A DNA stretch of 64,000 nucleotides, from NCBI GenBank assembly GCA_008080565.1, contig VIKE01000002.1:62001-126000 (forward strand), read 5' to 3'. A program made the position numbers and the translations under genes. Positions 10,538-64,000 of this stretch are shown piece by piece. This DNA comes from Rhodocyclaceae bacterium. Lineage in GTDB: Bacteria > Pseudomonadota > Gammaproteobacteria > Burkholderiales > Rhodocyclaceae. Under the pieces are notes generated by a model. It saw only the letters and a list, made by a program, of their open reading frames with translations, did no database searches and was not told where the DNA came from. Position 1 is the first letter of the stretch, and the number at the start of each line of letters is the position of its first letter.

Positions 10538-11749
10538 ATGGGGAACATTCTTTTCCTCGTCCATCGTCTGCCCTACCCCCCCAACAAAGGGGACAAAGTT
10601 CGCTCCTTTCATTTGCTCAAGCATCTGGCAGAAAGGCACCGTGTTTTCCTCGGCACCTTCGTCGATGACCCGGATGACATACAGCACATCGAGACCGTTC
10701 GCACCTATTGCAGCGATCTGTATGTAGCCCGACTGGAACCAAGGTTTGCCAAGCTGCGTAGCCTTAATGGATTACTTGCCGACGATCCGCTAACCCTTCG
10801 CTACTACCGTGATGTCAGGTTGCAGGACTGGGTCGACAACACCTGCCGACATAGAAATATCGACGCAGCGGTCATTTTTTGCTCAGCGATGGCCCAATAT
10901 ATTGAATCCATCCCCCGGCTACCGACCATCGTTGATTTTGTCGATGTCGATTCCGCCAAATGGACGCAATACGCGCCAAACCATCGCTGGCCCATGTCGT
11001 GGCTATACCGGCGAGAGGGCCAAAAACTGCTGGCTTACGAGCGCGAAGTCGCGGCCCGTGCCGCCCGATCATTTTTTGTTACAGAGGGCGAAGTCGAACT
11101 TTTCACTCGACTGGCCCCCGAGTGTGCGGTACGAGTCGAACCAGTCTGCAACGGGGTGGATGCCAATTACTTTGCCCCCGATGAAAACCGCGCCTCGCCC
11201 TTCGCTGCCAACGAGACTCCCGTGGTATTCACCGGCGCCATGGACTATCTGCCGAATATCGATGCGGTACGTTGGTTTGTCGCCGACATGTTGCCCCTGC
11301 TATGCGAACGATGGCCACAACTACGTTTCTACATCGTCGGCCGCAGTCCTACGGCGGAGGTTATGGCCCTGGGCAATGAAAGCGTCACTATCACCGGCAC
11401 GGTTCCCGATGTTCGCCCCTACCTCCAGCACGCGGCGGTAGTCGTCGCACCACTACGTATCGCCCGCGGCATCCAGAACAAGATCCTCGAAGCAATGGCC
11501 ATGGCCCGGCCCGTCGTGGCATCCAGTGAATGTGCTGGTGCGGTCGACGCCGATTTTGACCTGGAATTGAAAACTGCAACGACCCCCGCTGACTTCATCG
11601 CTGAAATCAACGCACTGTTGCAGGATCCCGAACGCTGCGCCAGCATCGGCAAGGCAGCCCGCCAAAGAGTAATTGCACGATACAGCTGGGAGGCCCATCT
11701 CGGCAGCATCGACCAATACCTTCCCGCCTCCCAGGAGGTCGCCGCATGA
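10538..11749 (+). CDS. PEP-CTERM/XrtA-associated glycosyltransferase (TIGR03087 type)
   Basis: A 403-residue GT-B fold glycosyltransferase of the GT4 type. The N-terminal FLVHRLPYPPNKGDKVRSFH binds near the acceptor. The C-terminal half has FTGAMDYLPNIDAVRWF, IVGRSPTAEV, and the donor-binding region APLRIARGIQNKILEAMAMARPVVAS. It is cytoplasmic and membrane-associated, adding a sugar to the lipid-linked repeat unit. It starts two bases after the FemAB-like gene and overlaps the exosortase gene by four bases (ATGA). Confidence 0.9.
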   Translation: MGNILFLVHRLPYPPNKGDKVRSFHLLKHLAERHRVFLGTFVDDPDDIQHIETVRTYCSDLYVARLEPRFAKLRSLNGLLADDPLTLRYYRDVRLQDWVDNTCRHRNIDAAVIFCSAMAQYIESIPRLPTIVDFVDVDSAKWTQYAPNHRWPMSWLYRREGQKLLAYEREVAARAARSFFVTEGEVELFTRLAPECAVRVEPVCNGVDANYFAPDENRASPFAANETPVVFTGAMDYLPNIDAVRWFVADMLPLLCERWPQLRFYIVGRSPTAEVMALGNESVTITGTVPDVRPYLQHAAVVVAPLRIARGIQNKILEAMAMARPVVASSECAGAVDADFDLELKTATTPADFIAEINALLQDPERCASIGKAARQRVIARYSWEAHLGSIDQYLPASQEVAA

Positions 11750-13260
11750 ACAGCCAGTCCAACTGGAAGCCGACCTTGGTCGCAATCGCACTGATCCTCC
11801 TCTGGATCGGCTATTGGTACTGGGATACTTTGGGGGCGATGGCGCAGATCTGGTGGCGCTCTGAAACCTACGCCCATGGACTCATCGTGCCACCTATTGC
11901 TCTGTGGCTCATCTGGAGAGACTGGCAGCGGCCTGCTGCGCTTTCCCCGCATCCCACCCTCTGGTTTGCCGTCCCGCTCGCCGGCTTCGTTTTCCTCTGG
12001 CTGCTGGGCGACCTAACCGCAGTCAACGCCCTGACCCAGTTTGCCGTCATTGGCATGATCGCGATCGCGATCATGGGCTTGGTTGGCAAGCCAATCAGCA
12101 AGATTCTGGCGTTCCCGCTACTCTTTCTGTTTTTTGCCGTCCCGGTCGGCGATTTCCTGCTGCCACGCCTGATGGAGTGGACCGCAGACTTTACCGTGCT
12201 GGCCCTGCGCTTGACCGGCATACCTGTTTTTCGCGAAGGTCAGAACTTCGTCATCCCCAGCGGCCACTGGTCTGTCGTCGAAGCCTGCAGCGGCGTCCGT
12301 TATCTGATCGCGTCGCTTACGGTCGGCACTCTTTACGCCTATTTAACCTATACCTCACTTAAGCGTCGCCTGATTTTCATTCTCGTTTCGCTGCTCGTTC
12401 CGATTCTGGCCAACTGGCTTCGTGCCTACATGATCGTTATGCTGGGCCACCTTTCCGGCAACAAACTCGCGGCCGGGGTAGACCATCTGATCTACGGCTG
12501 GGTCTTTTTTGGGGTGGTCATCGTCATCATGTTTGCAATTGGTGCTCGCTGGGCTGAACAACCAGTTCAGGCCGCCCAGCCCGCCACGTCGACCGCAAGC
12601 AGCGAGTACCAGAAACCGCTGCAAGCCTGGGTGACCACGCTCATTCTCACCCTCATTCTCGCCGCCGGCCCCCTCTACGAGAAGCGACTCCAGCAGGCCA
12701 ACACCGACGTAGTCATCAACCTTTCGCTACCAACCGCCGTCGGATCCTGGCACGCCGAGGCCCCCGTCACTGACTGGCAACCTCAATTCGCCAGTCCGTC
12801 GGTGGAGCGGCACTCGGCTTACATCAACCAGGGTGGCCAGGTTGGTCTCTACATCGCCTACTACCAAAACCAGAACTACGAGCGCAAGCTGGTGACCTCG
12901 ACCAACGTGCTTGTTACGTCAAATGACCCGGTCTGGCAAATCGTGGCAAATCGTCAGACAAATGCGAACTTCGGCGGCAGCGAATTGGCCGTTCGAGAGG
13001 CGGAACTGTTAAAGAAACAGGGCGTTGCTGATGAGCGCTACGTCGTCTGGAGCGTGTACTGGATCAACGGGCACCTCACCGCTAGCGACATCAAAGCAAA
13101 GTGGCTGACCGCATGGGCAATGCTCACTGGGCACGGCGACGACAGCGCCGCCATCATCTTCTACGCCCCCAAAAACTCGGCTGCCAAGGATCTGCAAGCC
13201 TTCGTCAACGAGGCTGGCGACGAAATCCTGCGCAGTCTGAACGAGGCACGGCCGAAATGA
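11746..13260 (+). CDS. xrtA: Exosortase XrtA with C-terminal EpsI domain
   Basis: A 504-residue integral membrane transpeptidase-like enzyme that recognises PEP-CTERM sorting signals. Residues 1-275 carry about eight membrane helices. The proposed catalytic triad is visible: Cys181 in VVEACSGVRYL, Arg226 in NWLRAYMIV, and His247 in GVDHLIYGW. After a linker and one more helix near 290-305, residues 310-504 form a periplasmic EpsI domain (LPTAVGSWHAE, IAYYQNQNYERKLV, VVWSVYWING), the fused arrangement usual for XrtA. It overlaps both neighbours by four bases. No PEP-CTERM substrate gene is present in this window, so substrates must lie elsewhere. Confidence 0.95.
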   Translation: MNSQSNWKPTLVAIALILLWIGYWYWDTLGAMAQIWWRSETYAHGLIVPPIALWLIWRDWQRPAALSPHPTLWFAVPLAGFVFLWLLGDLTAVNALTQFAVIGMIAIAIMGLVGKPISKILAFPLLFLFFAVPVGDFLLPRLMEWTADFTVLALRLTGIPVFREGQNFVIPSGHWSVVEACSGVRYLIASLTVGTLYAYLTYTSLKRRLIFILVSLLVPILANWLRAYMIVMLGHLSGNKLAAGVDHLIYGWVFFGVVIVIMFAIGARWAEQPVQAAQPATSTASSEYQKPLQAWVTTLILTLILAAGPLYEKRLQQANTDVVINLSLPTAVGSWHAEAPVTDWQPQFASPSVERHSAYINQGGQVGLYIAYYQNQNYERKLVTSTNVLVTSNDPVWQIVANRQTNANFGGSELAVREAELLKKQGVADERYVVWSVYWINGHLTASDIKAKWLTAWAMLTGHGDDSAAIIFYAPKNSAAKDLQAFVNEAGDEILRSLNEARPK

Positions 13261-54309: not shown

Positions 54310-54334
54310 CCCCTCTCCTGTGAAGAAGACAATC

Positions 54335-57109
54335 ATGAAAATGTCGCGTTCGCTTGTACCGACCGTAATCTCTACGGCCCTTCTGACGATGATGCTGGGC
54401 GCCTGTGGTGGCGACTCGCCAGAAAGCCTCATCTTGTCCAGCAAGGACTATCTAGCCAAAAACGATGCCAAGGCCGCCGTTATCCAGTTGAAAAATGCGC
54501 TGCAGAAAAACCCCAACCTTGCCGAAGCCCGCTTCCTGCTCGGTTCGGCGCTACTTGAAAGCGGTGACGTTGCGGGCGCAGAGGTTGAACTGCGCAAGGC
54601 GCTGGAACTCAAACACTCTCCGGATGCCACTATCCCTCTGCTGGCTCGCGCCATGTTGGCAGGCGGCAAGGCAAAAAAATTGGCCGATGAGTTTGGCCAG
54701 ACCAGATTAACTAACGGGGAACCTTTAGCATCCCTAAACACGACCCTAAGCGCGGCGTATGCATCTCTAGGCAAGCGCGACGTTGCCAGAGCGCTTCTTG
54801 CCGAAGCCCTTTCCTCAAGCCCAAATTATGTTCCTGCGCGATTAGCTGACATTTTGGAAACTGCCGCAAACAATGACCTCGCTGGGGCTCGCTCAAAGCT
54901 TGATGCACTATTGAACCAAAACCCGAACAATCCCGAAGCGCTTCTGATCAAGGGCAACCTTCTCGACTTCGATGGTGACACGGCTGGAGCTCTGGCCCAC
55001 TATCAGAAAGCCATAGACGCAAAACCCAGCTTTCTGAATGCTCATTCAGCAGCCATTGGAACTCTCCTCAAGGCAGGCAAGATCGATGAAGCGGCCAAGA
55101 AACTCGATGTCTTGAAGAAAATCTCCCCCAAACACCCGCAAGTCTACTTACTTGATGCTCAAATCAACTATCAACGTAAAGACTACAAAACTGCTCGTGA
55201 GTCCGTCCAGCAATTGCTGAAGATATCTCCCAACAACCCGGGCAACCTCCAGATTGCTGGTGCCATAGAATACCAATTGGGCTCCTACATACAGGCAGAA
55301 GCCTATCTGGCCAAGGCTCTGCAGTTAGCACCGGGGCTCCCGCTGGCCAGGCGCATTCTGGTAGCCAGTCACTTGCGTACAGGCCAATCGGGCAAGGCAC
55401 TGGAAACCCTTCAACCTGTGCTGGGTCGCATTGATCAAGACTCCGCTCTACTCGCTCTTGCCGGCGAAGCCTATTTGCAACAGGGAGACCCCAATAGGGC
55501 TGCCGAATACTTTGCCAAAGCCAGCAAATTGGAACCGGAGAATGCTGCAAACAAGACATCCCTCGCCTTGGCACATATGGCCCAAGGCAGCTCCGAAATC
55601 GCATTTCAGGAGCTGGAACAAATATCTGTTTCTGACAAAGGCATATCTGCCGATCTGGCGTTGATCGCCGCCCTCCTACGCAGTAATCAACTGGACAAAG
55701 CCTTAAAGGCTCTTGATGGCCTAGAGAAGAAACAGCCGAATAATCCGGCAACATATAACCTGCGTGCCCGCACTATGCTGGCCAAGAAGGACACGGCGGG
55801 AGCCCGCCAAAGCTTCGAAAAAGCCCTTTCGATCGACCCAATGTTTTTCCCTGCTGTAGCCAGTCTGGCCACGCTGGATTTGCTCGACAAGAAGCCGGAA
55901 GATGCTCGCAGGCGCTTTGAGGCAGTGATCAGTGCCGACCCCAAGAATATGCAGGCACTACTCGCTTTGGCTGAACTCAAGGCAGCCAACGGCGGCATGT
56001 CAGACGAAGTCTCCTCGCTGATCAGCAAAGCAATCAGCGCAGCCCCCAGCGAACCGGCTCCCCGACTCGCGCTAATTCAATACTATCTCAAGCTCAAGGA
56101 AAACAAGAAGGCGTTGACCGCTGCCAATGAAGCTACTAGCGCCATCCTGGACAAACCGGAACTGCTTGATGCACTGGGTCGTACCCAACAACTTGCTGGT
56201 GATTTCAATCAGGCACAGACCACCTACGGAAAACTTGCTTCCCTTCAACCAGCCTCACCATTGCCATTGCTACGCATGGCAGAAATCCAGTTCGCAAATA
56301 AAAACAAGGAAGAAGGCATCAAGAACCTCAAGAAAGCCCTTGAAATCAAGCCAGATATCGTGGAAGCACAGCGCTCACTGATCTTGCTAGCCATGGAAGG
56401 CAAGAATACGAAAAGCGCAATCGACATCGCCCGGATGGTACAAAAGCAGCGACCAAAGGAACCCGTCGGCTATGTGCTGGAAGGCGACATTCACGCATTT
56501 GGCAAAGCTTGGCCCGAGGCGATCACTGTTTTTCGAAGTGGTCTGAAAGTGGTTGCAGCCCCGGAACTCGCCATCAAGCTTCACGGCTCCTTGCTTGCTT
56601 CTGGAAACACAGCAGAGGCAGATAAGACAGCTGGCGCGTGGCTAAAAGACCATCCAAAAGATGTCGCCTTCCGGATGTATTTGGGTGACCGTGCTTCAGC
56701 ACAAACGAATTTTGCCCAAGCCGTGAATCATTACCAGGCAGCATTGGAACTCCAGCCAGATAATGCACTGATACTTAACAATATCGCTTGGGCATCAGGC
56801 CGAGTGAAGTCTCCAAAAGCGCTCGAATATGCAGAAAAGGCCAATCAGCTTGCCCCCAATCAACCTGCATTCATGGACACTCTGGCCATGTTGCTCGCCG
56901 ACAAGGGAGAAACAGCCAAAGCTGTTGAGCTACTCCGCAAAGCGCTAGCATCAGCACCTCAGGCTAGTGCGATTCAGCTAAATCTGGCCAAAGTCCTGAT
57001 TGCATCAGGCAAGAAGGATGAAGCGCGCAAGGAGCTGGATGCGCTGGCAACAATGGGCGAAAAATTCCCGAACCAGACCGAAGTCAGCCAGTTGCTCAAA
57101 TCCCTTTGA
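54335..57109 (+). CDS. prsT: PEP-CTERM system TPR-repeat lipoprotein PrsT (TIGR02917 type)
   Basis: A 924-residue lipoprotein. The signal peptide ends with lipobox LGAC followed by GGDSPES. The rest is a long solenoid of about 24 tetratricopeptide repeats (for example AAVIQLKNALQKNPNLAEARFLLGSALLES near the N-terminus). The family is fixed behind prsK and prsR and is thought to serve the exosortase or exopolysaccharide export system, probably as a periplasmic scaffold at the outer membrane. I use the ATG at 54335, which has GAAGAAG ahead; a GTG at 54320 would add five residues. The gene looks complete, unlike its two regulators. Confidence 0.92.
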   Translation: MKMSRSLVPTVISTALLTMMLGACGGDSPESLILSSKDYLAKNDAKAAVIQLKNALQKNPNLAEARFLLGSALLESGDVAGAEVELRKALELKHSPDATIPLLARAMLAGGKAKKLADEFGQTRLTNGEPLASLNTTLSAAYASLGKRDVARALLAEALSSSPNYVPARLADILETAANNDLAGARSKLDALLNQNPNNPEALLIKGNLLDFDGDTAGALAHYQKAIDAKPSFLNAHSAAIGTLLKAGKIDEAAKKLDVLKKISPKHPQVYLLDAQINYQRKDYKTARESVQQLLKISPNNPGNLQIAGAIEYQLGSYIQAEAYLAKALQLAPGLPLARRILVASHLRTGQSGKALETLQPVLGRIDQDSALLALAGEAYLQQGDPNRAAEYFAKASKLEPENAANKTSLALAHMAQGSSEIAFQELEQISVSDKGISADLALIAALLRSNQLDKALKALDGLEKKQPNNPATYNLRARTMLAKKDTAGARQSFEKALSIDPMFFPAVASLATLDLLDKKPEDARRRFEAVISADPKNMQALLALAELKAANGGMSDEVSSLISKAISAAPSEPAPRLALIQYYLKLKENKKALTAANEATSAILDKPELLDALGRTQQLAGDFNQAQTTYGKLASLQPASPLPLLRMAEIQFANKNKEEGIKNLKKALEIKPDIVEAQRSLILLAMEGKNTKSAIDIARMVQKQRPKEPVGYVLEGDIHAFGKAWPEAITVFRSGLKVVAAPELAIKLHGSLLASGNTAEADKTAGAWLKDHPKDVAFRMYLGDRASAQTNFAQAVNHYQAALELQPDNALILNNIAWASGRVKSPKALEYAEKANQLAPNQPAFMDTLAMLLADKGETAKAVELLRKALASAPQASAIQLNLAKVLIASGKKDEARKELDALATMGEKFPNQTEVSQLLKSL

Positions 57110-57152
57110 TATTGATTTTCGGAATTTTTTTTAGATAGATACAGGATTCATC

Positions 57153-58433
57153 ATGACAACAATTGCTGTAGTAGGTCTGGGATATGTCGGGTTGCCGCTG
57201 GCAGTGGAATTCGGTAAGAAATTCCGGACGATCGGCTTTGACCTCTCACAAGCAAAAATTGACAGCTACAAACACTACATCGACCCAACGGGCGAAGTTA
57301 GCACCGAAGACCTCAAGTCGGCGACTCAGCTAACAGTCTCCACCGATGCAAGCACCCTGCGCGAGGCAGATTTCGTCATCGTAGCTGTACCTACGCCGGT
57401 AGACGATGCACATCAGCCAGATTTCAGCCCGCTCGTCGGCTCTTCAACGACAGTTGGCCGCAACCTTAAACAGGGTGCCATCGTGGTGTATGAATCGACA
57501 GTCTACCCTGGAGCAACCGAAGAGGTCTGCATCCCGATTCTCGAAAGAGAGTCCGGCAAGACCTGGAAAACTGATTTCTTCGTCGGCTATTCGCCCGAAC
57601 GTATCAATCCGGGTGACAAGGAGCGCACTGTCACCAAGATCGTCAAGGTGGTGTCTGGAGACACGCCAGCCACGCTTGATAAGGTCAAAGAGATCTACGG
57701 TAGCGTAATCACAGCGGGGGTCTACGCAGCGTCCAATATCAAGGTTGCTGAAGCAGCCAAAGTCATCGAAAATACCCAGCGAGACCTCAACATTGCACTG
57801 ATGAACGAACTGGCGATCATTTTCGACAAGATCGGCATCGACACGCTTGAAGTGCTCCAAGCAGCCGGCACCAAGTGGAATTTTCTACCGTTCCGTCCCG
57901 GCCTGGTTGGTGGCCATTGCATAGGCGTAGACCCCTACTATCTGACGCACAAGGCCCAGAAGCTTGGTTATCATCCGGAAGTCATCCTGGCCGGGCGGCG
58001 CATTAATGATGGCATGGGCAAGTTCGTCGCCGAGCAGACTATCAAGATGCTTGTCGGTGCCGGCCACCCGATCAAGGATCAGCCGATCATCGTGCTAGGC
58101 CTGACCTTCAAGGAAGACTGTCCCGACCTTCGCAATTCCCGAGTTATCGATGTAATTCGAGAACTTCAATCCTACGGTGCCACGGTAGTAGTACATGACC
58201 CGGTTGCTGATACTGCTGAGGCCCATCATGAATATGGCGTTGACCTTGTCAATTGGGAAAGTCTGCCCAAGGCTTCCGCTATTGTTGTTGCGGTCAATCA
58301 CAAACAGTACAAGGCCCTTACAACCGGTCAATTCACAGCTAAACTGAAACCGAATGGCGTGATTACCGACGTCAAGAGTATGTTGGACTACAACGCTTTC
58401 GTGGGTACCGGTGTAACGGTCTGGCGTTTGTAA
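57153..58433 (+). CDS. UDP-sugar 6-dehydrogenase (TviB/VipA-like nucleotide sugar dehydrogenase)
   Basis: A 426-residue NAD-dependent enzyme that oxidises the C6 hydroxyl of a UDP-HexNAc to a uronic acid. It has the Rossmann motif AVVGLGYVGLPLAVEF, VVYESTVYPGATEEVC, YSPERINPGD, KVIENTQRDLNIALMNELA, and the catalytic Cys in VGGHCIGVDPYYLTHKA. The sequence is closest in pattern to the TviB/WbpA group. Such acids are natural substrates for the amidotransferases at 14445 and 32882. It follows prsT by 43 bases that contain an eight-T run without a hairpin. Confidence 0.9.
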   Translation: MTTIAVVGLGYVGLPLAVEFGKKFRTIGFDLSQAKIDSYKHYIDPTGEVSTEDLKSATQLTVSTDASTLREADFVIVAVPTPVDDAHQPDFSPLVGSSTTVGRNLKQGAIVVYESTVYPGATEEVCIPILERESGKTWKTDFFVGYSPERINPGDKERTVTKIVKVVSGDTPATLDKVKEIYGSVITAGVYAASNIKVAEAAKVIENTQRDLNIALMNELAIIFDKIGIDTLEVLQAAGTKWNFLPFRPGLVGGHCIGVDPYYLTHKAQKLGYHPEVILAGRRINDGMGKFVAEQTIKMLVGAGHPIKDQPIIVLGLTFKEDCPDLRNSRVIDVIRELQSYGATVVVHDPVADTAEAHHEYGVDLVNWESLPKASAIVVAVNHKQYKALTTGQFTAKLKPNGVITDVKSMLDYNAFVGTGVTVWRL

Positions 58434-58443
58434 GGGGAAGTTG

Positions 58444-59352
58444 ATGAAGCACTCAAGGATTACTACCGCTGCACCTTTCCCTTGGGCGCTTTGCGCACTG
58501 ATTGTTGCCAGCATGTTTTACAAGCCAGCTATCGCCGACACCAAAGCAATCAAAGAACAGGCGATGGCGTTGCGCAATGAAGCGAAATCATTTGAACATG
58601 GTGATGGCACCCCACGAAACCCTGCAAAGGCAGTCGAGCTTTATTGTGAGGCAGCACGACTCGGCGACGTTGAGGCGCAGTACAACCTTGGTTGGATGTA
58701 CGCTATGGGTCGTGGCATAGAACGTGACGATGCAACAGCGGCTCTCTTCTTCACGATGGCGGCCCAACAAGGCGATATGCTCGCTGAGCGTATGCTTCGC
58801 CAGGTCGGCACACCGATCACCAAAGCTCCAGCCTGCCTCTCGGATCCAGAGCTGAACGACACTGACGGTGATGACATCGTCGCCAAGGCAACACCGGAAC
58901 ATCGCAAGGTGATGGATCTTGTTCAGAAGTTAGCTCCCGAATACGGTGTTTATCCGCGCTTGGCCATGGCCATCATTCGCGCTGAGTCGAATTTCAACCC
59001 AGAAGCCATCTCGCCCAAGAATGCCCAGGGCCTGATGCAATTGATTCCCGAAACCGCAGAACGCTTCAACGTCAAAAAGCCCTTTGATCCCGAGCAAAAT
59101 ATTCGCGGAGGACTCGCCTATCTGCGATGGCTGCTGGCCTATTTCGAGGGCAATATCCCATTGGTAGCCGCAGCCTATAATGCAGGTGAGGGCGCAGTAA
59201 ACCGCTACGCTGGTGTTCCACCCTACGCAGAGACCAAAGGCTACGTGAAGCGCATCCGCGAGATATTCAAACGCGAGGATCATCCATTTGATCCTGGCGT
59301 GACGAGCCCCTCACCAGAATTACCCAAAATTATCTCACGCAGGTTGATGTGA
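58444..59352 (+). CDS. Lytic transglycosylase with Sel1-like repeats
   Basis: A 302-residue exported enzyme. The signal peptide ends near KPAIADT. Two Sel1-like repeats (YCEAARLGDVEAQYNLGWMY and FTMAAQQGDMLAERML) come first. The Slt-type domain has Glu181 in AIIRAESNFNPEAIS, then AQGLMQLIPETAERFNV and VAAAYNAGEGAVNRY. It cuts peptidoglycan glycan strands and may open space for the export complex. Transglycosylases recur at this place in exosortase loci. ATG at 58444 with GGGGAAG ahead. Confidence 0.9.
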   Translation: MKHSRITTAAPFPWALCALIVASMFYKPAIADTKAIKEQAMALRNEAKSFEHGDGTPRNPAKAVELYCEAARLGDVEAQYNLGWMYAMGRGIERDDATAALFFTMAAQQGDMLAERMLRQVGTPITKAPACLSDPELNDTDGDDIVAKATPEHRKVMDLVQKLAPEYGVYPRLAMAIIRAESNFNPEAISPKNAQGLMQLIPETAERFNVKKPFDPEQNIRGGLAYLRWLLAYFEGNIPLVAAAYNAGEGAVNRYAGVPPYAETKGYVKRIREIFKREDHPFDPGVTSPSPELPKIISRRLM

Positions 59353-60113
59353 GGTGGTTGGCCGGAATTTGCCGATGTTTATTGGCCGGTCAGGCTATTC
59401 TTGGGACAATCGCATCTGCAGCCGATCTTACCGACACCATTGAGCGGATCAAACCGTCAATCGTCGTCGTGGGTACCTACAAAAATACTAGCAGTCCCCA
59501 GTTTGTCATGCGTGGTACCGGATTCGTGGTTGGCTACGGAAATCTGGTAGCTACCAACGCACATGTGCTAACAGAAATCAATGGCCCAGACGCGCCCGCC
59601 TTGGTAATCCGGGCGCGGACCGCGAATGGTGAGCCGCAGATTCGGCGAGCTTTGCTGGCTAGTCTGGACAAAGAGCACGATCTCGCTGTTTTACGCATAG
59701 AAGGATCTGCCTTGCCGGCAATGAAACTCGGAAACTCTGATCAGGTGCGCGAGGGGCAGTCCATTGCTTTTACTGGCTTTCCACTTGGAGGTGCCCTAGG
59801 CTTTTCTCCTGTTACCCACCGCGGCATTGTGTCGTCAGTAACCCCAATTGCACTGCCCGGTGGAAATGCCCAGCAGATCAACGAAAAGCTGATCCGCAAG
59901 ATCAGAAGCGGAACGTTCAACATCTTGCAGCTTGATGCTACAGCCTATCCAGGCAATAGTGGTAGCCCAGTCTACGATACCGAGACAGGCGAAACTCTCG
60001 GTGTCATTAACATGGTATTCATAAAAGGCACGCGCGAGGCGGCGTTGAATCAGCCATCGGGAATCAGCTATGCAATCCCGGTGAACTACCTCCTGGAGTT
60101 GCTAAAACAATAA
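59349..60113 (+). CDS. Exported trypsin-like serine protease
   Basis: A 254-residue protein with an N-terminal signal peptide ending near TIASAAD. The catalytic triad is His72 in LVATNAHVLTEI, Asp in DKEHDLAVLRIEG, and Ser204 in AYPGNSGSPVYDTETG. No PDZ domain follows, so it is a short DegP-like protease of the trypsin_2 type. It starts with a GTG overlapping the transglycosylase stop (GTGA), so the two are probably cotranscribed. Target unknown. Confidence 0.87.
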   Translation: MRWLAGICRCLLAGQAILGTIASAADLTDTIERIKPSIVVVGTYKNTSSPQFVMRGTGFVVGYGNLVATNAHVLTEINGPDAPALVIRARTANGEPQIRRALLASLDKEHDLAVLRIEGSALPAMKLGNSDQVREGQSIAFTGFPLGGALGFSPVTHRGIVSSVTPIALPGGNAQQINEKLIRKIRSGTFNILQLDATAYPGNSGSPVYDTETGETLGVINMVFIKGTREAALNQPSGISYAIPVNYLLELLKQ

Positions 60114-60257
60114 GGTATCCGTAGCCCAATCAGACCTACAACCGTCCCTCCTGTTTTGCACACCAAAGGCTGGCTTTCTGAGAAGTATTTCCTCACCGCT
60201 ATTGCATATGCACTTTAGACTTCAAACAATACAGTCGTTTATTCCTACGTAACTTAT

Positions 60258-60276
60258 GTGTCGGAAAATTTTACAC
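60258..60276. promoter_or_regulatory. Candidate upstream activator site 1
   Basis: GTGTCGGAAAATTTTACAC has GTGT and ACAC ends around an AAAATTTT core. It lies about 95 bases upstream of the -24/-12 promoter at 60360, the right distance for an enhancer-binding protein such as PrsR. A related half appears on the other strand orientation at 60304-60319. Confidence 0.4.
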
Positions 60277-60303
60277 GCCCACTGACGAGAGGCTGTTCTA
60301 TCC

Positions 60304-60319
60304 TGTAAATATTCGTAGA
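60304..60319. promoter_or_regulatory. Candidate upstream activator site 2
   Basis: TGTAAATATTCGTAGA resembles the reverse complement of site 1 (TGTAAAATTTTCCGACA) in its TGTAAA start and TT-C-G middle. Centre-to-centre distance to site 1 is about 43 bases, near four helical turns. Paired sites are common for NtrC-type regulators. Confidence 0.3.
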
Positions 60320-60359
60320 ATACCGCGCCAATACTGGGTCCATAGCCAAAACATAAAAG

Positions 60360-60376
60360 CCGGCTTGAATTTTGCT
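60360..60376 (+). promoter_or_regulatory. Sigma-54 (-24/-12) promoter
   Basis: CCGGCTTGAATTTTGCT has GG and GC separated by exactly ten bases. Against YTGGCACGrNNNTTGCW it matches both invariant pairs, the G-purine after the CAC position, and the whole TTGCW. The start of transcription would be near 60387, about 60 bases before the ATG at 60447. It would place the following four-gene cassette under RpoN and an activator such as PrsR. Confidence 0.6.
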
Positions 60377-60446
60377 TTTTAGTTATGCATATAAACCTAT
60401 GACCCAGAACACCTAGGTCATCAGCAAAAGTAATATGGAGCAAAAA

Positions 60447-61199
60447 ATGCTGCAAGATAAAAATACCGGGTCACACGAGCCCAATATGCAAAACGATTCA
60501 GACAGCGCCTCCAGCGTAGAGGCCGTTAGGTCACGTCGGAAATTCGTTGTTAGTGCAACAGCTGCCCCCGTCCTCATGACGGTTGCGGGAAGGTCCGCAT
60601 TGGCGTGCCAAACGGTCCCCAAAGGGCTTTCATTTGCCGCTTGGTGCTCGGTAAACCCAAAAGGGAAGAGTACTCAGAGCACATGCGTTTCCCATACCGT
60701 TTCTGGTCACACACCATGCAAACCGCCATACGCTTGGACCCCAAAGAAAACGGGAACGTGCTTTGAAGTGGCTTGGCCGGACCATCCGGAATGCAAGCCC
60801 TTTACATCTTGCAAGCAACGCTATACCGATAGAAGAGGCAAAACCGCCTATCGGGATAAATCATGGGCAGGACCTAGCGGAACCTACCAAGACATGTGCC
60901 ATCACTTCACCGAAACTTCGCTCACAGATGCCGGTTGGAATACAGGAACAAAGCTCTCTTGGCTTGATGGCAGTCGCTCGATTGCCAAGATTTTGATTGA
61001 CGAATCACGGGTTCCTGGAAGCACTGGTAATAAAGCCGAGTTTTGTGCGGCTTGGCTCAATGCTCACAAATACCCCGGAACCTATGCACTCAAGCCAGAA
61101 CATGTCCGAGAGTTGTGCGCCACTGGGAAAATCGGAACAGGTGGTTATGTTTTAACCCCTGAGGAATGCAAAGCGTTCTTGGAACAGACCCGCGCCTAA
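60447..61199 (+). CDS. Tat-signal, Cys-rich exported protein of unknown function
   Basis: A 250-residue protein. Residues 1-30 are polar. SRRKFVVSATAAP matches the twin-arginine pattern, and the signal should end at RSALA before Cys. The mature part has 11 Cys residues spread through it (among them ALAC, AAWCS, TPCK, PECK, DMCHH, EECK) and Trp-rich segments, and no recognised fold. It ends in EQTRA without a PEP-CTERM signal. GGAG six bases ahead of the ATG at 60447 decides the start over the ATG at 60435. As first gene of the sigma-54 cassette it could be the substrate of the PqqD-like and HprK-related proteins; that is an inference. Confidence 0.68.
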   Translation: MLQDKNTGSHEPNMQNDSDSASSVEAVRSRRKFVVSATAAPVLMTVAGRSALACQTVPKGLSFAAWCSVNPKGKSTQSTCVSHTVSGHTPCKPPYAWTPKKTGTCFEVAWPDHPECKPFTSCKQRYTDRRGKTAYRDKSWAGPSGTYQDMCHHFTETSLTDAGWNTGTKLSWLDGSRSIAKILIDESRVPGSTGNKAEFCAAWLNAHKYPGTYALKPEHVRELCATGKIGTGGYVLTPEECKAFLEQTRA

Positions 61200-61200
61200 A

Positions 61201-61452
61201 TTGAGCCAAGAGCAGTTGGCCCCCAGGCTTTCGGGACGAGCAGACTGCTTAGCCGTCACGTTTGACAGCGAGGCCGAGACAGTTCTCCTTCTGCCAAACT
61301 CAGGAGAGGTATTGCTTTGTGCCACTCAAGCCTGGGAGGAGGTAGTCAACTCCGGTATTTTTTCAAATAGCTCAGCAGAAGGGTTGGAGTTATCTGCTGA
61401 TGCCGAAAATCTGCTGGCTACGCTTGATCGCTTAGGTATTGATCTCGGGTAA
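61201..61452 (+). CDS. Small PqqD-like protein, HPr-rel-A system type
   Basis: An 83-residue protein starting with a TTG one base after the previous stop. LLLPNSGEVLLCATQAWEEVVNSGIF, followed by a predicted helix (DAENLLATLDRLGIDL), resembles the peptide-binding PqqD/RRE fold that precedes HprK-related kinase A in other genomes (TIGR04353 type). In peptide-modification systems such proteins bind the leader of a precursor. The short length and divergence make the assignment tentative, but the gene order supports it. Confidence 0.6.
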   Translation: MSQEQLAPRLSGRADCLAVTFDSEAETVLLLPNSGEVLLCATQAWEEVVNSGIFSNSSAEGLELSADAENLLATLDRLGIDLG

Positions 61453-61490
61453 TTCTTTTCGAGACCGCGTTTTCTGGTCACAATGCACTC

Positions 61491-62405
61491 ATGCCATCTA
61501 ATTTACTGAGTGCATTCACACTCGATTCGATCACCGACGCTCTATCTCAAGAAGGCTTGGTGCTAGACGTCACTTCATATCGCTGCCGAATCCGTTCAGA
61601 TCTCGCAGCAGCCTTAGCTAAACCGCTCCTATTGCTTTACCAGGACTACCCCGCCTACCTCGAGCATTCGGGGTTCATTGACTTTGACATCGAACTCAAT
61701 AGCAAGCGTACAGGGTGGCTTGAGAAAAATGTCGAGTTTAGTTGGGACGGACAGACCCCTTTTCCGGCCCTGCCCTTGAATCAGGTTCATCCCCTCTTTG
61801 AGTGGGGATTGAATTGGTGCATATCGACACTCGCCGGTGAAGATATCGTCATTCACGCGGCCGTTCTGGAGCGAAACGGAGGAGCTCTAGTGCTCCCGGG
61901 CGACCCAGGCTCCGGAAAAAGCACGCTATGCGCTGCACTCTGTCTTTCCGGATGGCGCCTGCTCTCAGATGAACTAACGATCATTTCACCAATAACTGGC
62001 CAGGTCCGGCCCATGCCTCGCCCAATCAGCCTCAAGGACGCATCAATTGGCATTATTCAATCGCGTTTTCCGGATGCGACGATCACTACACCAATTGGCG
62101 ACACACGCAAGGGTGACATCGCTTACGTGCGCCCGCCAGTAGCGGCTATCCACCGGTGGTCGGATGAAGTTCCCATTCGACACGTCATTTTTCCGCGATA
62201 TTCTGCCGCGTCCCCTCTCGACTCTTTCGTACTTACGAAGGCCAGAATGCTTTCAAAACTTCTGGACAATACATTCAATATCGGAGTTTTCGGAACATCC
62301 GGTTTTGCCGCACTTGCTGAAGCTGTCGTCGACTCGATAGGTTACGAGGTCAAATATGGCGACTTGTCGGAAGTCGCAGGATGGATAGATACGACATGCC
62401 GGTAA
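61491..62405 (+). CDS. HprK-related kinase A (TIGR04352 type)
   Basis: A 304-residue kinase related to HPr kinase/phosphorylase and to lasso-peptide-tailoring kinases. The P-loop is LVLPGDPGSGKSTLCAALCLSG (Gly137-Thr145), and SDELTIISPITGQVRPMPRPISLKD follows as in HprK. YVRPPVAAIHRW and IRHVIFPRYSAAS are further family stretches. No HPr (PtsH) gene is nearby, so HPr is unlikely to be the substrate. A protein in the cassette, such as the Cys-rich one, or a small molecule is more likely. It overlaps the nucleotidyltransferase gene by 25 bases. Confidence 0.85.
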   Translation: MPSNLLSAFTLDSITDALSQEGLVLDVTSYRCRIRSDLAAALAKPLLLLYQDYPAYLEHSGFIDFDIELNSKRTGWLEKNVEFSWDGQTPFPALPLNQVHPLFEWGLNWCISTLAGEDIVIHAAVLERNGGALVLPGDPGSGKSTLCAALCLSGWRLLSDELTIISPITGQVRPMPRPISLKDASIGIIQSRFPDATITTPIGDTRKGDIAYVRPPVAAIHRWSDEVPIRHVIFPRYSAASPLDSFVLTKARMLSKLLDNTFNIGVFGTSGFAALAEAVVDSIGYEVKYGDLSEVAGWIDTTCR

Positions 62406-63436
62406 GCCGCTTGCCAACCATATTGGGAAACCCAACTGGGATTAGCCGCATCAGTGGAGAGCAATGGAACGCAATCCTTCTACATTCAAGAAAAACTCAA
62501 AGTTTGGGACAACTGGCCTCGCGACTAGACTCAGCGGGTTTTCTCAACGAGGTTCCGCCAGCAGTACTCAGGCACCTTAATCTGGCGAGAACGACAGCCC
62601 AACGTCGTGCTGATGCAGCCCGTTGGGAAATTGATGTCATTCGCCGAGCGATACACCCCGGCACGCCGGTCATACTTCTTAAAGGCTGCGCCTATCTGGT
62701 GGCCAATGACCCGAATGCAGACGGACGTCTTTTTTCTGACATTGACATTCTTGTGCCTCGCGCATCTCTGGGAAAAGCAGAGGCTGCCCTGACTGCTGCA
62801 GGCTGGATGCCCAGTACCGTCGATGCCTACGACCAGCACTACTATCGCGATTGGTCACACGAGGTTCCACCCATGGAGCATGTCCGTAGACATACCGTTG
62901 TGGACCTTCACCACGCGATTAATCCCCCCATATCGCGCTATAGCATCCCCACTGAGTCACTACTGGAGCACCTGGAAGAGATTGCCCCTGGAATACACAT
63001 TCTGGGCTCAGCAGATCGCGTAATTCACTGTGCGATCCACTTGCTTCAGGAGGGGGAAGCAAGCAAGGTTTTCAGAGATCTCTATGACCTCTTCCTTCTT
63101 ATTGAAACCAACTACCCCAAGGGGACCAAACGAGATGAGTTGTATGCTCGCGCCGAAACGCTTGGACTTCGTCGACTAGTTTCCGCGGCTATCAACGCAG
63201 CTGAAGTAGTTTTCCAAACGGAGACTACTTCTTCCCCCTCCACGTGGCTTGCGAAGATACTCATTGCGGTAGCATCCGGGAGCTCACCACAAACGGGGAA
63301 CTCTTACTCTATTCAAATCAGCCGTTTTGCCCTGCTCGCTCAATCGCACTGGATGAAAATGCCGCTGGGCATACTAATTCCGCATCTGTTAAGAAAAACA
63401 CTTCTGGCGTTCATTCCGAATCGTGACCCCAGTTAG
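62381..63436 (+). CDS. Nucleotidyltransferase family protein (PF14907-like)
   Basis: A 351-residue protein of the uncharacterised nucleotidyltransferase family. VILLKGCAYLVANDPNADGRLFSDIDILVPR holds the catalytic Gly-x-Asp-x-Asp type motif (SDIDIL). Partner carboxylates probably lie in HTVVDLHHAI, and RDLYDLFLLIE follows. Members sit next to HprK-related kinases in lasso-peptide and similar clusters. The ATG at 62381 has GGAAG eight bases ahead; an ATG at 62396 is the alternative. Likely activity is transfer of a nucleotide to a substrate already handled by the kinase; unproven. Confidence 0.82.
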   Translation: MDRYDMPVSRLPTILGNPTGISRISGEQWNAILLHSRKTQSLGQLASRLDSAGFLNEVPPAVLRHLNLARTTAQRRADAARWEIDVIRRAIHPGTPVILLKGCAYLVANDPNADGRLFSDIDILVPRASLGKAEAALTAAGWMPSTVDAYDQHYYRDWSHEVPPMEHVRRHTVVDLHHAINPPISRYSIPTESLLEHLEEIAPGIHILGSADRVIHCAIHLLQEGEASKVFRDLYDLFLLIETNYPKGTKRDELYARAETLGLRRLVSAAINAAEVVFQTETTSSPSTWLAKILIAVASGSSPQTGNSYSIQISRFALLAQSHWMKMPLGILIPHLLRKTLLAFIPNRDPS

Positions 63437-63595
63437 GTAAAAGAAAGAACTTGGGCACATGCCAACGAAACGGAGTGATTTCCGCTCACCGAATTCCTTG
63501 TCGACCAGGTAGTGCACCTGCTCACGTCGTGATGGTGCACTCACCACATTTTTCGCAAGACCGAAAAAATTGACCAAGGACTTGGTATTTATCAT
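63389..63595 (-). CDS. Possible small protein, antisense-overlapping the nucleotidyltransferase end
   Basis: A 68-residue open frame with AAGGA eight bases ahead of the ATG at 63595. It begins MINTKSLVNFFGLAKNVV and is basic (RREQVHYLVDKEFGERKSLR). Its last 48 bases overlap the end of the gene on the other strand. No family recognised. The good ribosome-binding site is the main reason to list it. Confidence 0.3.
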   Translation of the reverse strand: MINTKSLVNFFGLAKNVVSAPSRREQVHYLVDKEFGERKSLRFVGMCPSSFFYLTGVTIRNERQKCFS

Positions 63596-63725
63596 TTTCA
63601 CATTCCTTTTTCGAATGTTACTGCTCAATAAAGTCGATTGAGCTGCAAAAGAACCCAACGTAACGTAATTCCTCAGTCCGGCAACTCCTACCCTCCGGGA
63701 TATCAGCCGAATTTTGGGGAATATC

Positions 63726-64000
63726 ATGATCATCCAGTGTGAACATCTCCGCGTTACATTGAAGCGTGGTTCGACGTTTGAATTCGCCGGCGCTTGCGGA
63801 AATAAACTGATTTGTGTGACCGGCACGATCTGGGTCACTCAGCATCACCTAAGTAACGACTGGGTGCTGCAGTCCGGTGAGTTTCTGACCATCGAAAACC
63901 CCGGCAAAGTTGTCATTTCAGCATGCAGCAATGACAGCGCCACATTTTCCGCGCGGCAACGCTTGAATGAGCACGGAAAGAGTTGCATCAATCAAGTCCG
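63726..64000 (+). CDS. DUF2917-like protein (3' end cut by window edge)
   Basis: The frame is open from the ATG at 63726 to the last base (91 codons visible), with GGGGA six bases ahead. LRVTLKRGSTFEFAG, LICVTGTIWVTQ and DWVLQSGEFLTIE match the small beta-barrel family DUF2917, common in Betaproteobacteria. The role is unknown. It seems unrelated to the cassette upstream and has its own leader of about 290 bases. Confidence 0.72.
   Translation, partial: MIIQCEHLRVTLKRGSTFEFAGACGNKLICVTGTIWVTQHHLSNDWVLQSGEFLTIENPGKVVISACSNDSATFSARQRLNEHGKSCINQV

Follow-up and report, generated by a model that had tools for sequence, protein, structure and literature searches.

Gene content and layout of the cassette

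The DNA analyzed here (the window) is a stretch of 64,000 nucleotides from a Rhodocyclaceae bacterium (assembly GCA_008080565.1, contig VIKE01000002.1, positions 62,001 to 126,000), in which a cassette of four genes lies on one strand. All four open reading frames (ORFs) listed in an earlier note, made from the sequence alone, are present: a gene for a protein with a twin-arginine leader of the type that directs export through the Tat pathway (here the leader protein), a small protein in the position of a PqqD-like gene, an HprK-related kinase, and a nucleotidyltransferase. The leader-protein gene is preceded by GGAG at 60437-60440, six bases ahead of its start at 60447, and an in-frame ATG is present at 60435 as well; the kinase and nucleotidyltransferase ORFs overlap. 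Scans of both the Pfam and NCBIfam libraries returned no family for the leader protein. Based on the survey described below, the four genes almost certainly form one conserved unit with an unannotated leader protein.

Table 1. Features of the cassette, in window coordinates
Feature	Position	Strand	Remarks
Sigma-54-like -24/-12 site CGGCTTGAATTTTGCT	60361..60376	+	Score 18 of 21.5, weak alone
Leader-protein gene	60447..61199	+	250-residue product with 11 Cys; proposed substrate
Twin-arginine leader, residues 30-53, to presumed cleavage site	60534..60605	+	Cleavage site read by eye
Ser68 codon, proposed acceptor	60648..60650	+	Matched to the invariant Ser column of the family; register in the window copy not certain
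Small PqqD-position protein, proposed leader-binding helper	61201..61452	+	TTG start; placed by operon position
HprK-related kinase A	61491..62405	+	TIGR04352 above cut-off
PF14907 nucleotidyltransferase	62381..63436	+	PF14907 above cut-off

Distribution of the four genes

The earlier note had named a neighborhood survey as the test of whether the first gene belongs with the other three, and such a survey places it with them. We used a set of 199 related genomes, including that of the window, in which the kinase family TIGR04352 was found above its cut-off in 62 genomes, at 63 loci (the sub-cut-off loci L125 to L127 were left out of the analysis). A leader-protein gene stood directly before the PqqD-position gene in 60 of the 63 loci, 51 of them found by rule and nine added by reading; the remaining three were an interrupted copy (L088), a copy located after the nucleotidyltransferase (L118), and a locus at a contig edge (L080). 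The nucleotidyltransferase directly followed the kinase at every locus (63/63), and a PqqD-like candidate was found in 60/63, two of these scoring under 10 bits. One genome with two kinase loci also had two leader proteins. At the level of whole genomes, a profile made from 38 leader proteins matched 59 of the 62 kinase-positive genomes versus 2 of the 137 kinase-negative ones, both of the latter marginally (E values of 5e-4 and 8e-4); the corresponding Fisher p value of 3e-44 is not corrected for kinship. No strong orphan copy of the leader protein appeared in the 199 genomes, with at most 16 candidates scored per genome.

A second set consisted of the best 80 of 183 relatives with named records, one genome per species, which by their titles are mostly Beta- and Gammaproteobacteria, together with one Phycisphaeraceae assembly. 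Here the nucleotidyltransferase was beside the kinase in 80/80 loci, a PqqD-like protein was present in 79/80, and a leader protein in 77/80, some of these matching over the leader only. Two of the three loci lacking it (L162 and L202) stop at a contig edge, and the third (L197) is considered below. The two collections are not independent, as they appear to have certain contigs in common (L158 and G133:C50, L201 and G083:C4). Three loci carried two leader-protein genes beside a single enzyme set, placed after the nucleotidyltransferase in L157 and L159 and in front in L184, and the only leader-protein gene of L189 also came after the nucleotidyltransferase. Such doubling and moving is expected of genes that encode substrates.

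The cassette is also carried by plasmids, and in two annotated plasmid records the leader-protein gene is labeled hypothetical. In a Vibrio plasmid the protein combines the leader with a Ser-Gly-Asn-Ala-Ser motif, and in a Sphingomonas plasmid the leader is joined to a different body. One of the carriers, L208, is the Vibrio alfacsensis plasmid pVa1, where no PqqD-like gene is annotated or was found by profile.

Conservation within the leader-protein family

In the window copy, SRRKFVVSATAAPVLMTVAGRSALA was read by eye as a twin-arginine-type leader, with the twin Arg, the hydrophobic stretch, and the small-residue cleavage site that characterize Tat substrates. A family profile built without this copy and its nearest relative gave 56.8 bits to the whole window protein and 20.0 bits to its mature part, the best of 1,000 shuffles reaching 8.8 bits.

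Across the family, conservation is concentrated in the leader and in a Ser motif that follows it. Among 114 non-redundant rows, the first Arg of the pair was found in 112/113 filled positions and the second in 112/112. The motif residues, spaced by four, were Cys (102/108), Ser (100/105), Ser (104/105), and Ser (79/102); the 104/105 column has a single exception, a Thr in a row resembling class 2 (see below). When rows with at least 120 filled columns were considered (15 of 140 fell below and were left out), the third key residue was Ser in 125/125 proteins. The leader had a mean pairwise identity of 0.41 and the motif one of 0.45, compared to 0.12 before the leader and 0.23 to 0.27 after the motif, and a shuffle control gave 0.11 for the leader minus the twin Arg (observed, 0.35) and 0.12 for the motif (observed, 0.45). 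In the window copy, Ser68 occupies the invariant Ser column in alignments A2 (38/38 Ser) and A3 (61/61 Ser) and by profile. The Asn-x-Ser of the motif was considered as an N-glycosylation sequon and dropped, with Asn in 69/140 rows and no sequon at this place in the window copy.

The tandem copies showed the same distribution of identity. The pair of L159 shared 15/22 residues in the leader and 10/12 in the motif versus 19/72 and 16/44 elsewhere, that of L184 shared 21/25 and 8/13 versus 31/71 and 13/29, and that of L157 shared 16/23 and 9/12 versus 17/77 in columns 71 to 150.

On reading, three classes of mature body could be distinguished, with the leader alone common to all: class 1, the main family with the Ser motif; class 2 (e.g., L107, L118, and L218); and class 3 (e.g., L244 to L247). 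In class 3, the proteins of L244 to L247, L249, L251, and L252, all from one family within the same phylum, have a Cys-(Glu/Gln)-Ile-Pro-Val segment after the leader. On the kinase tree, the nine class 2 rows need five changes, against a shuffled mean of 8.8 and none of 500 shuffles as low, so that they are clustered, although we give this little weight because L098, L187, L203, and L205, which are class 2-like or odd, were automatically counted as class 1. The fold of the mature domain of one relative was predicted with good confidence, and in the searches run its model had no match among solved structures, a result that does not prove the fold to be new.

The earlier note had presented the first gene product as Cys rich. 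This describes the window copy, whose 11 Cys (counted from the twin Arg onward) are the highest number in the set of 57 proteins from relatives, but not the family, with medians of 3 in that set and 4 in 79 proteins from the named genomes; Cys richness was thus rejected as a hallmark. The value of 11 is at the high end and not unique, since four of the 79 (L145, L146, L152, and L194) reach 11 or 12. These are distant loci, so high Cys content arose in at least two parts of the set.

The enzymes and the PqqD-position protein

The kinase matched TIGR04352 with 299.3 bits (cut-off 200) and the nucleotidyltransferase matched PF14907 with 151.8 bits (cut-off 31.2). His122, the P-loop Lys143, Asp160, Glu161, and Lys182 of the kinase were identical in 143/143 kinases, and Lys207 in 142. 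Likewise, Lys101, Gly102, Asp120, Asp122, and Asp175 of the nucleotidyltransferase were identical in the 141 proteins, out of 143, long enough to align. Judging from these invariant active-site residues, both enzymes appear to be active. No function in print was found for HprK-related kinase A, nor any account of this four-gene system, in the open-access literature searched.

The small second protein is harder to place. It matched no NCBIfam family (TIGR04353 gave nothing at E values up to 1 or up to 10), and its sole Pfam match, FakA-like_C with an E value of 0.17, is at chance level. A PqqD-like profile built without it gave 11.7 bits, and comparison of a profile of this protein and its nearest relative with one of 22 others gave a probability of 10% with an E value of 0.003. 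On the other hand, its operon place is that of the TIGR04353 proteins of its relatives, this family being above cut-off in three of the four other proteins scanned from the same position. The name PqqD-like, given in the earlier note, is therefore owed mainly to operon place, because the profile score barely exceeds that of the best of 1,000 shuffles (10.0 bits), and by position the protein may be a degenerate member of the PqqD family. A canonical member does exist elsewhere in the genome, as the only PF05402 match found there (L001) is on another contig (G000:C39:11153-11341).

Sigma-54-type sites upstream of the cassette

The cassette had been described as led by sigma-54, and here the family carries the claim better than the window does. 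The site of the window has three mismatches to TGGCAC-N5-TTGCW; at two mismatches or fewer the window has 40 matches versus 42.3 expected, which is chance level, and this site is not among them. As a self-evident promoter it was rejected, not being significant alone, and it was accepted only through comparison with the family. Using a scoring consensus, sites with a score of at least 19 of 21.5 were found in 47 of the 118 regions upstream of leader-protein genes (none on the reverse strand; 2.05 in shuffles), and at the level of the window site, 18 or above, in 71 of the 118 (5 on the reverse strand; 8.8 in shuffles). Sigma-54-type sites are thus enriched ahead of leader-protein genes.

As to the regulator, the genes just upstream of the cassette encode PrsK, PrsR, and PrsT, an arrangement reminiscent of the RpoN-dependent PEP-CTERM genes accompanied by PrsK/PrsR. 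In Aquincola, pepA depends on RpoN1, with TGGCAC and CTGCTT as putative elements (PMC9850573); by analogy, control of this cassette by PrsR is plausible. The leader protein differs from PEP-CTERM proteins in its C terminus, read directly as CKAFLEQTRA, in which no sorting signal (Pro-Glu-Pro, membrane stretch, and basic tail) was seen on reading.

Comparison with known systems

By kinase family and gene order the window copy is HPr-rel-A-like. It shares with that system (TIGR04352, TIGR04353) the order of the genes and a nucleotidyltransferase beside the kinase, so the label used in the earlier note stands for these traits, but TIGR04353 is unmatched by the second protein. In addition, the two models cover no leader protein, and the leader proteins scanned belong to no NCBIfam or Pfam family.

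The lasso-peptide analogy of the same note, in which a kinase and then a nucleotidyltransferase-like protein act on a single Ser, can be found in the literature. PsmK and PsmN act in turn on one Ser of pseudomycoidin (PMC9266682), and PadeB1, in a group annotated as PqqD-like, has a Kd of about 5 nM for its leader (PMC5067487). Paeninodin and pseudomycoidin tailoring (PadeK, PsmK, PsmN, and PadeB1) offers an HprK-like kinase and a nucleotidyltransferase-like protein modifying one Ser of a ribosomal precursor, together with a PqqD-like leader binder. The precursor of the cassette, however, would be a protein of 250 residues with a twin-arginine leader and no short peptide. The only lasso-annotated match to the nucleotidyltransferase of the window among plasmids was a weak one from Deinococcus (E value of 2e-4). 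A cyclase or leader protease had been said to be missing, which holds for the part scanned: neither a lasso B2 protease nor an asparagine-synthetase-like cyclase is among the annotated genes at 54320-63998, the rest of the window not having been scanned.

HprK-like and PqqD-like proteins also come together in SynChlorMet (ScmC kinase-like, ScmD PqqD-like), but the match of the kinase to ScmC is weak (28.1 bits) and below the cut-off of 125. Finally, Tat chaperones hold cofactor proteins until they are loaded. Maturation in the cytoplasm before Tat export would be common to both cases, the difference being that the helper proposed here is PqqD-like.

A proposed route of protein modification and its alternatives

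The enzymes of the cassette probably add a chemical group to the exported protein before it leaves the cell. More specifically, and by analogy with the lasso-peptide enzymes, we give an even chance to a route in which the cassette serves to produce a single exported protein and to tag it, with Ser phosphorylation, capping, and then Tat export. The PqqD-like protein would bind the twin-arginine leader and retain the newly made chain in the cytoplasm. The kinase would phosphorylate the invariant Ser shortly after the leader, and the nucleotidyltransferase would add a nucleotidyl or sugar group to the Ser phosphate, much as PsmN seems to act once PsmK has done so. The folded and tagged protein would then leave via Tat, the leader would be removed, and the mature protein would work in the exopolysaccharide layer. 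Tat export fits this order because phosphorylation needs ATP and so must precede export. Leader-guided modification would lead one to expect this combination, a leader that stays the same and cargo that varies, encoded by genes that are duplicated and relocated. With a constant partner that carries both a leader and a near-perfect Ser, two orphan enzymes, the kinase and the nucleotidyltransferase, become parts of a single reaction that can be tested.

A bolder version can be put forward tentatively. A recognition protein of the RiPP type (ribosomally synthesized and post-translationally modified peptides) would read the twin-arginine leader, the kinase and the PF14907 enzyme would equip a fixed Ser with a nucleotide or sugar attached through phosphate, and the exported phosphoglycoprotein would serve as an anchor or primer of the exosortase A exopolysaccharide, a role that is a guess. 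Since nothing but the leader is common to the classes, enzyme sets of one kind would tag at least three different mature domains. If true, RiPP-style leader recognition would be joined to Tat export, and the exosortase A matrix, which is tied to floc formation in activated sludge (PMC9850573), would gain a covalently tagged protein component.

Several observations weigh against tagging of the invariant Ser under guidance of the leader. The helper protein of the window is barely PqqD-like, and the invariant Ser could be structural. Alignment A4 sets Ala64 in the Ser column (48 Ser, 1 Ala) where A2 and A3 give Ser68, so the register in the window copy is uncertain. Class 2 and 3 proteins do not have the class 1 motif, so a single rule based on one Ser would leave them out. 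The two tandem copies of L157 also resemble each other fairly well in their C-terminal part (22/44). Regarding co-occurrence, the leader profile was built from genomes within its own test set, and orphan copies could be missed because of the limit on candidates scored per genome. The Phycisphaeraceae locus L197 has the kinase, a PqqD-like protein, and the nucleotidyltransferase, yet no leader protein in the 12.9 kb examined. Association is also less complete in a phylum-wide draw, where TIGR04352 was above cut-off in 61 of 398 genomes: of the 56 outside the first set, 46 were examined (10 of the 61 were not), and a leader-protein gene was recognized on reading, by leader pattern or profile, in 38 of these 46 loci. 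Among the remaining eight, L225 has the gene on the opposite strand, in L248 and L250 its presence is ambiguous, and none was seen in L227, L228, L234, L239, and L254.

Some of these points would suit another site of modification, with the leader protein still as substrate, the invariant Ser structural, and the acceptor at another Ser or Thr, in the C-terminal segment, or at a class-specific place. Class 2 and 3 proteins keep the same enzymes without the class 1 motif, the motif Ser four residues earlier is nearly as constant (100/105), and a Tyr-Leu-x-x-Thr-type segment is found at the C terminus of several class 1 proteins. Nevertheless, the best Ser/Thr column outside the motif, Ser49 of the leader, reaches 74/112 against 104/105 for the motif Ser, and in the A2 register the window copy has no Ser at the earlier motif position, so that we regard this as rather unlikely.

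The location of the cassette would also fit a different kind of substrate. The window is an exosortase A polysaccharide locus, with exosortase A itself at 11746-13260, and the cassette tracks this system, exosortase A being above cut-off in 60 of the 62 kinase-positive versus 16 of the 137 kinase-negative genomes. The kinase and nucleotidyltransferase might then have a sugar or lipid-linked polysaccharide intermediate as their substrate, the leader protein being a co-regulated exported partner and no substrate. This is equally doubtful, since leader-protein genes duplicate and move within the cassette, their mature bodies vary as the leader stays, 16 genomes have exosortase A without the cassette, and the presence of a PqqD-like protein speaks for a peptide as the substrate. 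A regulatory switch, in which the kinase would phosphorylate an HPr-like or other cytoplasmic protein to tune polysaccharide output with the neighboring genes as accessories, is highly improbable: in its favor, the kinase distantly resembles HPr kinase/phosphatase (17.9 bits for TIGR00679, far under the cut-off of 240), but such a switch leaves unexplained both the constant leader-protein gene and the nucleotidyltransferase adjacent to the kinase (63/63 and 80/80 loci).

Genes around the cassette

Directly after the cassette there is an ORF at 63714-63998, cut by the end of the window, with no NCBIfam match. Upstream, besides PrsK, PrsR, and PrsT, are a nucleotide-sugar dehydrogenase, a transglycosylase-type protein, and a trypsin/HtrA-type protease (59349-60113). 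In the stretches examined of 143 loci, the family of this protease recurred in 55, PrsT in 54, the transglycosylase-type protein in 38, and the dehydrogenase in 29. The protease, recurrent near the cassette, could process the exported protein.

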